Source: Mesonia hippocampi
GTDB lineage: Bacteria; Bacteroidota; Bacteroidia; Flavobacteriales; Flavobacteriaceae
DNA length: 64,000 nucleotides
NCBI RefSeq assembly: GCF_014197445.1
Contig: NZ_JACIFO010000011.1
Location: 1 to 64,000, forward strand
Direction of reading: 5' to 3'
Made by a program: the position numbers and the translations under genes. This document shows positions 33,444 to 39,509 of this stretch, in pieces (position 1 is the stretch's first letter; each line of letters opens with the position of its first letter). The notes beneath the pieces are model-generated. The model had not been told where the DNA came from. It saw only the letters and a list, made by a program, of their open reading frames with translations, and searched no databases.

Positions 33444-35192
33444 ATGTTAGACATTTCAGAATTAAAAGCCAAGAAACTACCCGAGCTTCAAGAAATTGCA
33501 CAATCGCTTAATGTACCCAAATACCGCTACTTAAGAAAATTAGATTTAGTATACCAAATTCTAGATCACCAAGCAGCTAACCCACAGGAAGTAAAAGCAG
33601 TTCTACAAGACAATAAATCAACCAACGAAACAGTGACTGAAAATAGAAGTAAGCCTGATAATAATACAAAAAAAGTTGTAGATAGTAAAGTTGATAACAA
33701 AAAGGAAGAGCATTCTAAAAAACAAAAACGTCCTCGTACAGCTAAAAACAATACCAGAACAAACTCAACTTCCAAGCCCGCTGTTAACAATGATAACAGA
33801 GAGCAAAAACAAGCTCAAAAAACTAAACCCGCTACTAGCACTAACGAGCAGACAGACAACTCTGTAAACAATAAAGGAGACAACAAGAATAAATCCAATT
33901 TTGAGAACAATCAAAAAAGGAAACATCAAAAGGATAGCAAAAATCCTCAAAAAAATCAGCAGAAAGACAACAAAAACCAACAAAACAACAATTCTGCCAA
34001 CCACAATAACAAGAAACAAACGCAAAAAAATGGCAACCGCGATAACCGCAACCGTTACCGAGAGCCAGACTATGAGTTTGAGGCTATTATAGAAAGCGAA
34101 GGTGTTTTAGACATTATGCAAGATGGTTATGGTTTCTTACGCTCGTCAGATTACAATTACCTTTCTTCTCCAGACGATATTTACGTATCACAATCACAAA
34201 TTAGATTATTTGGTTTAAAAACTGGAGACACCGTATTAGGCGAAGTTCGCCCTCCTAAAGAAGGCGAAAAATACTTCCCACTAATCAAAGTAAGTAAAAT
34301 TAATGGGCTAGACCCACAAGTAGTTAGAGACCGGGTTTCGTTTGAACACTTAACCCCTCTTTTCCCACAAGAAAAGTTTAAGATAACAGAAAAGCAAAGC
34401 TCTATCTCTACACGTATCATCGATTTATTTTCCCCTATAGGAAAAGGACAACGAGGCATGATTGTATCGCAACCAAAAACAGGTAAAACAATGTTATTAA
34501 AAGACATTGCCAATGCCATTGCAGCAAATCATCCAGAGGTATATCAAATTGTTTTATTAATAGACGAGCGCCCAGAAGAAGTAACCGACATGCAACGCCA
34601 CGTAAAAGGAGAAGTTGTCGCTTCTACTTTTGATAAGGAAGCCCACGAACACGTTCGCGTAGCAAACATCGTATTAGAAAAAGCAAAACGCTTGGTAGAA
34701 TGCGGACACGATGTTGTAATCCTATTAGACTCTATTACCCGTCTAGCAAGAGCATACAACACCGTACAACCAGCCAGCGGAAAAGTATTAAGTGGTGGTG
34801 TAGATGCAAATGCCTTACATAAACCTAAACGTTTCTTTGGAGCTGCACGTAACATCGAAGGCGGAGGCTCTCTCTCTATCATAGCTACAGCATTAACCGA
34901 TACAGGTTCTAAAATGGACGAAGTTATCTTTGAAGAATTTAAAGGAACAGGAAACATGGAGTTACAATTAGACAGAAAAATTGCCAACCGCCGTATATTC
35001 CCTGCTATAGACCTCACCTCCTCGAGTACAAGACGAGACGATTTATTGTTAGACGAGCAAAGCATACAACGTATGTGGATAATGCGTAAATACTTAGCCG
35101 ATATGAATCCTATAGAAGCTATGGAATTTATTAGCGACCGCATAAAAAGCACCCGTTCTAACGAAGAGTTTTTACTTTCGATGAATAGATAA
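33444..35192 (+). CDS. rho: Transcription termination factor Rho with long disordered insertion
   Basis: A 582-residue hexameric RNA helicase that terminates transcription. An N-terminal Rho_N-like segment (1-50, [19 protein letters not shown]) is followed by about 155 residues very rich in Lys, Asn, Gln and Thr (about 52-208). The RNA-binding OSB fold ([15 protein letters not shown]) and RecA-like motor follow: Walker A QPKTGKT (about 343-349), Walker [17 protein letters not shown], and the Q/R loops. E. coli Rho has 419 residues; the insertion explains the difference and is typical for Bacteroidota. A terminator hairpin follows. Confidence 0.96.
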
Positions 35193-35216
35193 AATCACAA
35201 AAAACAATACAAAACC

Positions 35217-35242
35217 AAAACCCTGCAAAAAAGCAGGGTTTT
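35217..35242 (+). terminator. Intrinsic terminator of rho
   Basis: AAAACCCTGC and GCAGGGTTTT pair around AAAAAA, followed by more T. Confidence 0.85.
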
Positions 35243-35266
35243 TTAGTCAAGAAAACTCACTACCTC

Positions 35267-35296
35267 TTGTACAAAAAAATTATAGGTTTATCTTTG
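35267..35296 (+). promoter_or_regulatory. Promoter of the thrS-infC-rpmI-rplT operon
   Basis: TTG (35267-35269), a 19-base spacer and TATCTTTG (35289-35296) match both halves of the Bacteroidota promoter consensus. The expected start near 35303 leaves a leader of under 20 bases before the thrS ATG, so no T-box or attenuator fits. Confidence 0.7.
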
Positions 35297-35319
35297 CAGG
35301 ATATAGAAAAAATCGTCTC

Positions 35320-37266
35320 ATGATAAAAATAACTTTGCCCGATGGGAGTGTTAGAGAATACCAACAGAACACAACCCCTTTTGAAGTAGCTCAAAGCATA
35401 AGCCAAGGTTTGGCTAGAAATGTAATTTCTGCAAGTTTTAATAAGACTACCGTAGAAACAAAAACACCGCTTACTACAGATGGCACGCTTACGTTATACA
35501 CATGGAATGACGACGAAGGTAAGAAAGCCTTTTGGCACAGTTCTGCCCACGTACTAGCACAAGCATTACAAGAACTATACCCAGGTATAAAACTCACCAT
35601 AGGTCCAGCCATAGAAAACGGTTTTTATTACGATGTAGACTTTGGTGAGCATAAAATATCTGACAACGATTTTAAGAAAATCGAAGATAAAATGCTCGAA
35701 ATCGCTCGTGGAAAGCACGAATTCTCTATGCGAGAAGTAAGTAAGCAAGATGCTTTAAACCTCTATAAAAACGAGAAAAACCCTTATAAAGTAGAACTTA
35801 TAGAAAACCTTACCGATGGTGACATTACCTTTTGCGACCACGATAACTTTAGTGATTTATGCCGAGGTGGTCATATTCCTAATACAGGAATCATAAAAGC
35901 GGTAAAACTAATGAGCGTTGCTGGAGCATACTGGCGTGGTAATGAGAAAAACCCGCAACTTACCCGCGTATACGGAATAAGTTTTCCTAAGCAAAAAGAC
36001 TTAAAAGAATACCTAGCGCTACTAGAGGAAGCTAAAAAAAGAGATCACCGTAAATTAGGAAAAGAATTACAACTATTCACCTTCTCAAAAAAAGTAGGAC
36101 AAGGATTACCTCTATGGCTTCCTAAAGGAGCAGCCTTAAGAGAACGCCTAGAAAATTTCCTAAAAAAAGCACAGCAAAAAGCAGGCTACGAGCAAGTAGT
36201 TTCACCACATATAGGTCAAAAAGAACTTTATGTAACTTCAGGACACTACGCTAAATACGGCGAAGACAGTTTCCAACCCATACAAACACCTAGCGAAGGT
36301 GAAGAGTTTTTATTAAAACCCATGAACTGCCCTCACCATTGTGAGATTTATAATGCCATATCGTGGAGTTATAGAGACCTCCCAAAGCGTTTCGCGGAGT
36401 TTGGTACCGTATACCGCTATGAACAAAGTGGAGAATTGCACGGATTAACCCGTGTAAGAGGGTTTACACAAGATGATGCCCATATATTCTGTACTCCAGA
36501 TCAATTAGACGATGAATTTAAAAAAGTAATCGATTTAGTGCTTTATGTATTTGGTTCATTAGGATTCGAGAACTTTACAGCACAAGTATCGTTAAGAGAT
36601 CCTGAAAACAAAGAAAAATACATAGGAAGCGAAGAAAATTGGGAGAAAGCAGAACGAGCCATTATCAATGCAGCAAAAGAAAAAGAACTCAATTATGTAA
36701 TCGAAACAGGCGAAGCAGCATTCTACGGGCCTAAATTAGACTTTATGGTTAAAGATGCCCTTGGTAGAAGTTGGCAATTAGGAACCATACAAGTAGATTA
36801 TAATTTACCCGAACGCTTCGATTTAACCTATAAAGGAGCCGACAACGAGGAGCACCGCCCAGTAATGATACACCGTGCCCCATTTGGTAGCATGGAACGC
36901 TTTATTGCTATTTTATTAGAGCATACAGGCGGTAACTTCCCCCTATGGTTAATGCCTGAACAAGCTATTATTCTGTCTTTGAGTGAGAAATATGAAAATT
37001 ATACACAAAAAGTTTTAAATTCATTAGAAAATCACGAAATTCGCAGTCTCGTAGATAACCGTAGTGAAACTATGGGTAAAAAAATTAGAGAAGCTGAAGT
37101 GAACAAAATACCATACATGCTTATTGTTGGCGAACAAGAAGAAAAAGATGGTACGGTTTCTGTAAGAAAACACGGAGGAGAAGATTTAGGAAGCATGAAA
37201 GTAGAAGAGTTTGCCAAGCTCATCGCTTCTGAAGTTAACGCTTCTCAAAAAACATTTGAAGTTTAA
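35320..37266 (+). CDS. thrS: Threonyl-tRNA synthetase
   Basis: A 648-residue class II synthetase that charges tRNA-Thr. The TGS domain (1-62, [13 protein letters not shown]) is followed by the editing domain ([26 protein letters not shown]). The catalytic core has zinc ligands in [10 protein letters not shown] and later HRAPFGS, with motif 2 [22 protein letters not shown]. The anticodon-binding domain closes the protein. It heads the operon with infC, rpmI and rplT; infC starts 18 bases after its stop. Confidence 0.97.
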
Positions 37267-37284
37267 CCTTAAAATTATATAGTC

Positions 37285-37842
37285 ATAGCAATACGCAGGA
37301 AAAAATCGAAAAGTAATTTTCGTCAAAAAAAGGAAGATTTACACAGAATTAACGAAAAAATTCGTGTTCCGGAAGTTAGGCTTGTAGGTGATAACGTAGA
37401 GATGGGAGTTTACCCAACTCGAAAAGCCTTAGAAATAGCTAAAGAGCTAGAATTAGATCTTGTAGAAATTTCTCCAAATGCTAAACCACCAGTGGTTAAA
37501 GCCATGGATTATAAAAAGTTTCTTTACGAACAAAAGAAACGTGAAAAAGCCATGAAAGCTAAAACCTCTAAAGTGGTAATTAAAGAAATTAGATTTGGCC
37601 CTAACACAGACGATCATGATTATGAATTTAAAAAGAATCATGCTGTAAAATTCTTAAAGGACGGCGCAAAACTTAAAGCATTTGTTTTCTTTAAAGGGCG
37701 TTCTATTGTCTTTAAAGACCAAGGAGAAATCCTTTTACTTCGTTTAGCACAAGAGCTAGAAGAATATGGTAAAGTAGAACAATTACCTAAGCTAGAAGGA
37801 AAACGTATGACTATGTTTATCGCCCCAAAAAAGGTAAAATAA
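37285..37842 (+). CDS. infC: Translation initiation factor IF-3, non-ATG start
   Basis: IF-3 binds the 30S subunit, checks initiator tRNA and prevents early 50S joining. The first ATG of the frame (37402) would delete the conserved start of the N-domain ([19 protein letters not shown]). The frame is open back to a stop at 37270-37272 and contains no ATG, GTG or TTG there. ATA at 37285 ([15 protein letters not shown]) gives 185 residues and the expected N-terminus. Rare AUN starts in infC are known to serve autoregulation in E. coli (AUU). The C-domain ([18 protein letters not shown]) is intact. Confidence 0.88.
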
Positions 37843-37879
37843 AAACATTAAGTAGAGATAATTAAAAACAAGGATAGCA

Positions 37880-38077
37880 ATGCCTAAAATGAAAACCAAA
37901 TCTAGTGCTAAAAAGCGTTTTAAGCTTACAAGCTCTGGAAAAATTAAAAGAAAGCACGCGTTTAAAAGCCACATCTTAACAAAGAAGTCTAAAAAACGTA
38001 AGCTTAAATTAACGCACAGTACACTAGTGCACAAGTCTGATGAAGACAATATTAAACTACAATTACGCTTAAAGTAA
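37880..38077 (+). CDS. rpmI: 50S ribosomal protein L35
   Basis: A 65-residue basic ribosomal protein; begins [22 protein letters not shown] and is Lys-rich throughout. Length and N-terminus are normal. It lies 37 bases after infC in the usual operon. Confidence 0.96.
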
Positions 38078-38180
38078 TAAAGGTTTAATTGGTTAACTAA
38101 ATTAATAACCCTGGAGTTAGGCTCATAAAAGTATTTTTTAAATTAAAAAAAATCGCCTACTACAAAAAAAACAGTAAATT
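38078..38180 (+). promoter_or_regulatory. Long rpmI-rplT spacer, possible L20 leader
   Basis: The 103-base gap is longer than other gaps of this operon. It contains CCCTGGAGTTAGGCTC, which is not AT-rich like the rest and could fold. L20 represses its own operon at such sites in other bacteria. No defined fold could be established by eye. Confidence 0.3.
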
Positions 38181-38525
38181 ATGCCAAGATCAGTAAATTC
38201 TGTTGCTTCAAGAGCTAGAAGAAAAAAAGTAATGAAGCAAGCTAAAGGTTACTTCGGACGTCGTAAAAACGTTTGGACAGTAGCTAAAAATGCGGTTGAT
38301 AAAGCAATGTTGTACGCTTATAGAGATCGTAAAACCAAGAAAAGAAACTTCCGTTCATTATGGATTACGCGTATTAACGCAGCAGCACGTATTAACGGAA
38401 TGTCTTACTCGCAATTTATGGGTAAATTAAAAGCTAATGAAATTGAGCTTAACCGTAAGGTTTTAGCAGATTTAGCAATGAACCACCCAGAAGCTTTTAA
38501 AGCGATTGTAGAGAAAGTTAAATAA
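38181..38525 (+). CDS. rplT: 50S ribosomal protein L20
   Basis: A 114-residue basic protein that nucleates 50S assembly. N-terminus [32 protein letters not shown] and the [16 protein letters not shown] segment are typical. It is the last gene of the operon, followed by a strong terminator. Confidence 0.96.
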
Positions 38526-38554
38526 ATACAACAACCTAATTATCTCTCTTATAA

Positions 38555-38583
38555 AAAAGTCTTCTCCAATCGAGAAGACTTTT
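38555..38583 (+). terminator. Intrinsic terminator of the infC-rplT operon
   Basis: AAAAGTCTTCTC and GAGAAGACTTTT form a 12-bp stem with a 5-base loop and a T-run. Confidence 0.88.
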
Positions 38584-38660
38584 TGTTTTAATAGCATTTC
38601 TTACGTATTTTACAATCTCAATAAGCAGTATAATACTACTAAAATAGACCTATACGAAAC

Positions 38661-39509
38661 ATGAAAAAAATAAAAATTTTAACATTAATATTGGTCTGTA
38701 TATCTATACTTTCTTGCCATAATGATGATAACGAGCTAGCGTTTAAAACAAAAATCATTAAAAATGTTACAAAGTCTACTAATACTCCATATCAAGGTTA
38801 TAACCACTCTTTTGAATTTAATAATGGATTGTTAATAAGTGCGACTGGAAACACTCCGTTTGTTGGAGAATATGAATATGACTCCTCTGGGAGAATAAAA
38901 AAAAGAATCCAAAATAATAATACTTACGAATATAAATACGACACTCTAAACAGGATTGTAAGAGTAAATACAGTAGGAAATGAACGTTATTTTGAATTAT
39001 CCTACCAAACAAATAAAGTAATAACAAAAGCTTATGTTTATTACGATTATAATAACACTACATCGATAACAGATTATGAATTACAATTAGACGATAAAGG
39101 TCGAATTATAAAAGCAACCTACTTAACACCCGACAACATACACAATATCGAATATAAAAAATACACCTATGATAGTAGGGGAAATATTACCGAAATTATC
39201 ACGAAATATGAAAATAAACAAATTAAATCTATTGATAAATATTTTTACGATGATAAAATTAACCCGTACTATGTATCTTTTAAAAAGCATAATAGCTTAA
39301 CCTATTATCTTAATAACCTCTCTGGAATAGAATTAACCAACGCTTCAGGATTAACTCCTAATAACATTACACGTCTTAATAATACAATGTATAACGATAT
39401 TTGGATCATTAAGTATGTTTACGATAATGATGGCTATCCTATAAGTTATAAAAGACACCTTTGTCTTGTTAATGGTTCAGAACCCGATATTATCATCGAG
39501 TATTATTAA
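38661..39509 (+). CDS. YD/RHS-like repeat lipoprotein
   Basis: A 282-residue lipoprotein (lipobox SILSC, then HNDDNE). The body has repeated units of the YD type: EYEYDSSGRIKKRI, EYKYDTLNRIVRV, KKYTYDSRGNITEI and IKYVYDNDGYPISYK. These resemble the beta-strand repeats of RHS shells but are few, and no toxin domain is attached. It is likely an outer-membrane or surface lipoprotein of unknown role. TACGTATTT lies at 38602 in its upstream region. Confidence 0.75.
   Translation: MKKIKILTLILVCISILSCHNDDNELAFKTKIIKNVTKSTNTPYQGYNHSFEFNNGLLISATGNTPFVGEYEYDSSGRIKKRIQNNNTYEYKYDTLNRIVRVNTVGNERYFELSYQTNKVITKAYVYYDYNNTTSITDYELQLDDKGRIIKATYLTPDNIHNIEYKKYTYDSRGNITEIITKYENKQIKSIDKYFYDDKINPYYVSFKKHNSLTYYLNNLSGIELTNASGLTPNNITRLNNTMYNDIWIIKYVYDNDGYPISYKRHLCLVNGSEPDIIIEYY

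Follow-up and report, generated by a model that had tools for sequence, protein, structure and literature searches.

A conserved AUA start codon predicted for infC in Mesonia hippocampi and other Flavobacteriaceae, with a possible role in IF3 feedback

In Mesonia hippocampi, infC, the gene for IF-3 (IF3), is predicted with high confidence to start at the ATA codon at 37285..37287 on the + strand of the analysed window, a stretch of 64,000 nucleotides. Probably, this codon is the sensor of an IF3 feedback, and the ribosome would be placed on it without a Shine-Dalgarno sequence (SD).

The gene order in the window, taken from the list of open reading frames (ORFs), is a thrS-like ORF (35320..37266), infC (37285..37842), an rpmI-like ORF for ribosomal protein L35 (37880..38077) and an rplT-like ORF for ribosomal protein L20 (38181..38525), all on the + strand. 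The last two start at ATG and were used as control genes. The neighbours, which we take to be thrS, rpmI and rplT, were recognised from sequence and homology rather than by a profile search. The thrS-like ORF ends with a TAA stop at 37264-37266, 18 nt 5' of the ATA, and a further TAA at 37270..37272 (+) is the in-frame stop upstream of infC. From there, the infC frame reads AAT TAT ATA (37279) GTC ATA (37285) GCA ATA (37291) CGC AGG and stays open through the stop at 37840-37842, which gives a product of 185 amino acids plus stop. The preliminary description of this DNA had claimed that no ATG, GTG or TTG occurs between the stop at 37270-37272 and the ATG at 37402, and reading the infC frame bears this out; on the + strand from 37200 to 37401, ATG is absent in all frames.

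Numbered from 37285, the product contains IF3_N at residues 22-89 and IF3_C at residues 97-182, both over the cut-off, and TIGR00168 at residues 17-183 (E 1.5e-54, also over the cut-off). Because the IF3_N and TIGR00168 matches reach into the stretch 5' of ATG 37402, this stretch is coding, in agreement with the claim that it encodes the conserved IF-3 N-terminus. It had also been expected that such a start would be missed by gene finders. Only part of this holds: the gene is not missed but truncated, and the ORF list limited to ATG, GTG and TTG gives an infC of 146 aa from 37402, without residues 1-39. As infC is a single match in the Mesonia hippocampi genome, the missing canonical start is not explained by a hidden second copy. 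The solved-structure matches, with a best E of 1e-39, comprise 11 distinct sequences that all bear the name IF-3, and they are uninformative on the start.

Two sets of relatives were compared. The named set consists of 80 loci in public genomes, of which 77 are labelled Flavobacteriaceae, 1 is labelled Cytophagaceae and 2 carry no family label; these are the best 80 of 586 candidates and are biased toward close relatives, and a wider sample of 104 genomes of the same family was therefore added. This family set includes 95 of 120 listed genomes (30 loci, 60 stretches and 5 others) and 9 from a second source; 25 of the 120 were left out, and the window's own genome was among the listed rows. The sets share species, and their counts are kept separate and not summed. 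All 104 family genomes and all 80 named loci (best 80 of 586) have a thrS C-terminus match 5' of infC.

The codon aligned with 37285 is ATA in all 80 named loci (best 80 of 586 candidates), and in the family set 102 of the 104 genomes, which are not independent of each other, have ATA there and the other 2 have ATC. From the upstream in-frame stop to this codon, no ATG, GTG or TTG is present in the 104 family genomes or in the best 80 of 586 loci. Elsewhere in the gene, isoleucine codons vary: from codon 4 onward, the 104 family genes have ATT 640, ATA 294 and ATC 287 times (n=1221), and codon 3 is ATA in 64, ATT in 32, TTA in 5, ATC in 2 and CTT in 1. The nearly fixed ATA at the start, against this variation, indicates that the codon is not merely coding for isoleucine. 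The alignment with other Flavobacteriaceae, which had been put forward as a check, therefore supports the predicted start at 37285, and with ATA or ATC in 104 of 104 genomes the non-AUG start is conserved. In E. coli, a start of this kind is the basis of IF3 autoregulation, and the further suggestion of a counterpart to the E. coli AUU is supported at the level of sequence. ATC replaces ATA in L116 and L335, in the latter preceded by ATT, and for L304 either ATA or ATC is a possible reading of the start codon. In L099, L104, L107 and L164, the stop found within the infC match is the normal stop just before the end of the profile, and the genes are intact.

The same position stands out in an initiation-region profile, which was built from the 20 nt upstream of 235 ATG starts that the named loci provide for thrS, rpmI and rplT, with infC excluded. 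The profile was slid along infC over 43 offsets relative to the ATA, -18 to +24 nt. Its mean score is maximal at the ATA in both sets of relatives (3.20 and 4.21), with offset -1 close behind (2.38 and 2.93). A second, lower maximum lies out of frame at +20 nt (2.92 and 2.11) and probably results from A-rich codons 3' of the start. In the window itself, the scores are 3.37 at 37285, 0.87 at 37288, -0.07 at 37282, -2.3 at 37279, -2.73 at 37291 and -15.85 at 37402.

These data also bear on other places at which infC could start. ATA 37279, GTC 37282 and ATA 37291 are all in the infC frame, and for GTC there is a parallel in Streptomyces, where sigR starts at this codon (PMC5472188, excerpt); a start at any of the three is nevertheless very improbable. 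The position of 37279, which had been named as a rival start, holds a stop codon in 30 of the 104 family genomes and in 30 of the 80 named loci (best 80 of 586), which excludes it as a general start. At 37282, the 104 genomes have GCC (57), GTC (32), GTT (5), ACC (3), ATC (2) and others, with TAA once; codon 3 at 37291 varies as given above, and all three positions score below 37285 in the profile. The ATG at 37402..37404 (+) is the first ATG of the open infC frame. It is codon 40, so a start there would cut 18 residues from IF3_N, and in relatives the first in-frame ATG is scattered, mostly at residues 73, 74, 39, 40 and 51 and in one family genome as early as residue 12, as expected for an ATG without a role. 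Together with its low profile score, this makes initiation at 37402 scarcely credible, and the same applies to an N-terminus gained by frameshifting from an upstream ATG, since none is present in any frame of the stretch described above. On the evidence of conservation, domains and profile, all of these alternatives were rejected in favour of ATA 37285.

The region in front of the ATA resembles initiation regions of the Bacteroidia that function without an SD. An adenine block, AAAA at 37271..37274 (+), occupies -14 to -11 relative to the ATA, in nearly the same register as the adenines before the ATG of rpmI and rplT, and A at -13 is found in 98% of the 104 family genomes and 96% of the best 80 of 586 loci. 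The block matches an A-12/A-13 motif described for F. johnsoniae (PMC8710568, PMC6847099, excerpts). An SD of -6 kcal/mol or stronger was found at infC in 0 of 104 family genomes and 0 of 80 named loci (best 80 of 586), and the window's value is +1.8; the background stretch about 200 nt upstream reaches this threshold in 19 of 104 and 23 of 80 (best 80 of 586). The infC start thus has the two traits of such regions, the lack of an SD and adenines at -12/-13. A third, adenine at -3, is absent at the infC start of the window, which has G. This G occurs in 91% of the 104 genomes and 97% of the best 80 of 586 loci, and in the control genes A is the most frequent base at -3 (thrS 48%, rpmI 82%, rplT 90%). 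The G belongs to a conserved GYC triplet, GTC at 37282..37284 (+) immediately 5' of the ATA; the triplet reads GCC or GTC in 89 of the 104 family genomes and in 75 of 80 named loci (best 80 of 586). In the SD-less infC, it may act as a context element by which initiation at AUA is rescued.

The anti-SD is present in Mesonia hippocampi, where the 16S gene has the CCTCC core at its end, and ribosomes of Bacteroidia are thought to hide it. Two copies of rpsU (bS21) are found on contig C3 of the same genome (L402 and L403); the ATG of one is preceded by an extended SD of -20.7 kcal/mol, and the ATG of the other has no SD (+1.6). An exceptionally strong SD of the rpsU type was not found at infC in the window's family. 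A structured leader was also ruled out for infC: no Rfam family reached the gathering score from 35000 to 38800, where three weaker matches (E 0.26-0.61), none over infC, were read as chance, and RNA folding around the start was no better than that of shuffled sequences (z -0.24).

The explanation that we regard as probable combines the start at ATA 37285, its role as the sensor of an IF3 feedback and ribosome placement without an SD. The fMet-tRNA would read AUA with a mismatch at the third base, which IF3 would disfavour on the 30S subunit. Scarce IF3 would lead to more AUA initiation and plentiful IF3 to less, and the start codon would thereby sense the level of IF3, like AUU in E. coli. 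The ribosome would be positioned by the A-rich leader, perhaps aided by the GYC triplet; the leader is proposed because the anti-SD has been reported to be hidden in this clade. Excerpts of several papers describe the elements of this mechanism. IF3 feedback via a non-AUG infC start is reported for E. coli (ATT), and infC of Streptomyces starts at ATC; in the E. coli type, expression goes down with more IF3 and control is lost in an AUG mutant (PMC5472188, excerpt). By ribosome profiling, infC of S. aureus starts at AUA (PMC13009471, excerpt), and the start in Listeria is ATT (PMC13068326, excerpt). IF3 disfavours weak third-base pairs, and for AUU read by CAU the full-length share went down to 31.1% as IF3 rose to 1.5 uM (PMC10158994, excerpt). 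We infer that an IF3 feedback through AUA operates in the Flavobacteriaceae. Several observations run counter to this reading: ATC in 2 of the 104 relatives, with L304 open to either reading, the G at -3, unlike the ATG controls, the second profile maximum at +20 nt, and the UUG, GUG or AUG candidates for infC in many other Bacteroidia.

Alternatively, ATA 37285 could be the start and simply fix a low rate of IF3 synthesis, perhaps by reinitiation after thrS, without feedback by IF3. The closeness of the two genes suits this view: the thrS stop precedes the infC start by 11-57 nt in all 104 family genomes and by 12-58 nt in all 80 named loci (best 80 of 586). Reporters in S. aureus with non-AUG starts gave about 10% of the AUG output (PMC13009471, excerpt), which would suit a low rate as well. 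However, the gap between the thrS stop and the infC start varies freely in length, and its values modulo 3 (40/37/27 among 104) include all three classes, which rules out a fixed coupling geometry between thrS and infC. In addition, the restriction of IF3's own gene to a codon class that IF3 disfavours (AUA, twice AUC) fits better with feedback. A fixed low rate is therefore rather unlikely, and the sensing of IF3 through AUA is preferred.

In the wider class Bacteroidia, infC was found in 147 of 149 genomes scanned. The class set that was read contains 151 infC copies from 150 genomes (G268 twice) and 62 family codes; 144 genomes came from the class scan and 6 from a second source, and G231 and G233, where the match is in pieces, and the window's own genome are omitted. 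Start candidates include AUA, AUC, AUU, UUG, GUG and AUG: ahead of the IF3 core, ATG, GTG and TTG are all absent from 62 of the 151 copies, another 57 contain GTG or TTG without ATG, and 32 have an in-frame ATG. As UUG, GUG and AUG candidates are common, a strongly IF3-sensitive start is dispensable in the class. Starts were picked by an approximate rule (the first start-like codon followed by GC, else the first NTG, else the first AUH, that is AUA, AUC or AUU), which left L225 without a candidate. Outside the window's own family (148 copies), AUH was picked in 75 copies from 39 families, and 17 of the 75 copies also have an in-frame NTG codon. The SD strength of these picks is two-humped, with 43 of the 75 at -16.8 to -9.3 kcal/mol and 32 at -6.3 or weaker; the 43 copies with a strong SD (-8 kcal/mol or stronger), among them L196, L242, L260, L273, L244 and L158, belong to 24 families, and the SD ends 4-9 nt 5' of the AUH codon. 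As a control, among 58 infC copies without an NTG start, an SD of -8 or stronger is found in 30, compared with 2 about 200 nt upstream. In 30 of the 43 SD-type genomes, no rpmI (0/30) and no rplT (0/30) has an SD of this strength, so the SD is not general to these starts; in at least two of the 30 (G178, G181), rplT lies away from infC.

We also asked whether a GYC-like triplet marks the SD-less AUH starts found outside the family. RYC stands before the start in 13 of the 31 SD-less picks and in 9 of the 43 SD-type picks, with the doubtful pick L262 dropped, and such a mark is not claimed because the Fisher p is 0.07 and the rows are not independent. In a FastTree phylogeny of IF3, built from this one short protein with 150 tips, the states AUH with SD, AUH without SD and NTG require 35 changes, compared with a mean of 65 and a minimum of 56 in 100 shuffles; the start states are clustered on the tree yet have changed many times. 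Among phylum members outside the class, many have ATC near the expected infC start, often followed by GCA or GCT (seen by eye and uncounted). G268 carries two different infC genes, L152 and L267; L152 matches TIGR00168 with E 1.3e-77, and because this score is far above those of the other Bacteroidia copies in the same search, L152 may represent contamination or transfer.

A broader and more tentative proposal, which is possible but doubtful, is that infC in Bacteroidia often starts at AUH with two exchangeable placements, SD-less or with a strong SD, and that the SD form joins the feedback by IF3 with a feedback by anti-SD exposure. If this is true, IF3 synthesis in the SD form would depend both on how much IF3 is present and on ribosomes whose anti-SD is exposed, such as those lacking bS21, and SD screens anchored on ATG, GTG or TTG annotations would tend to overlook infC.

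Non-AUG starts of infC are already known, as is AUA in S. aureus. The E. coli infC is the same gene, and its start is likewise a conserved non-AUG codon that mispairs with the initiator tRNA at the third base; it combines AUU with a strong SD (PMC1805508, excerpt), whereas infC of Mesonia hippocampi has AUA and no SD, and the feedback is demonstrated in E. coli and predicted for the Flavobacteriaceae. S. aureus infC shares the AUA start, but an extended SD is predicted to direct it (PMC13009471, excerpt), unlike the SD-less infC of the window, and the nearly fixed AUA of the Flavobacteriaceae occurs in another phylum. The strong SD that goes with the non-AUG start in E. coli and S. aureus is dispensable for the feedback logic. 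The infC starts of Streptomyces (ATC), Listeria and B. subtilis (both ATT) are also non-AUG (PMC5472188, PMC13068326, PMC1805508, excerpts), with another codon and in other phyla than that of the window. The rpsU of F. johnsoniae is likewise a translation gene that is reported to regulate itself via its own initiation region (PMC9976891, excerpt), and some Bacteroidia infC genes resemble it in having a strong SD; however, rpsU responds to anti-SD exposure, and one rpsU copy of the window's own genome has ATG with the strong SD given above, whereas the window's infC is SD-less. The same source also describes SDs on several ribosomal genes in some orders of the Bacteroidia, so SD use outside the Flavobacteriales is not itself new, judging from the excerpt; the word infC is absent from PMC9976891.

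Among the matches listed in the open-access literature, no description of an infC AUA start in Bacteroidota was recognised. A 2020 arXiv paper on genes that prefer non-AUG starts in bacteria reportedly names infC, and it may cover Bacteroidota. What appears to be new here, as judged from genome comparison, is the same gene and logic with AUA nearly fixed across a whole family and without an SD.

For a large family in which gene finders limited to the usual start codons would truncate this essential factor, the comparison indicates where its true N-terminus probably lies. The occurrence of AUH starts both with and without an SD on infC across the class would form a natural experiment on what non-AUG initiation needs. 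The Flavobacteriaceae infC would also offer a clean test case for start-codon discrimination by IF3, and for its self-regulation, in bacteria that hardly use Shine-Dalgarno sequences.
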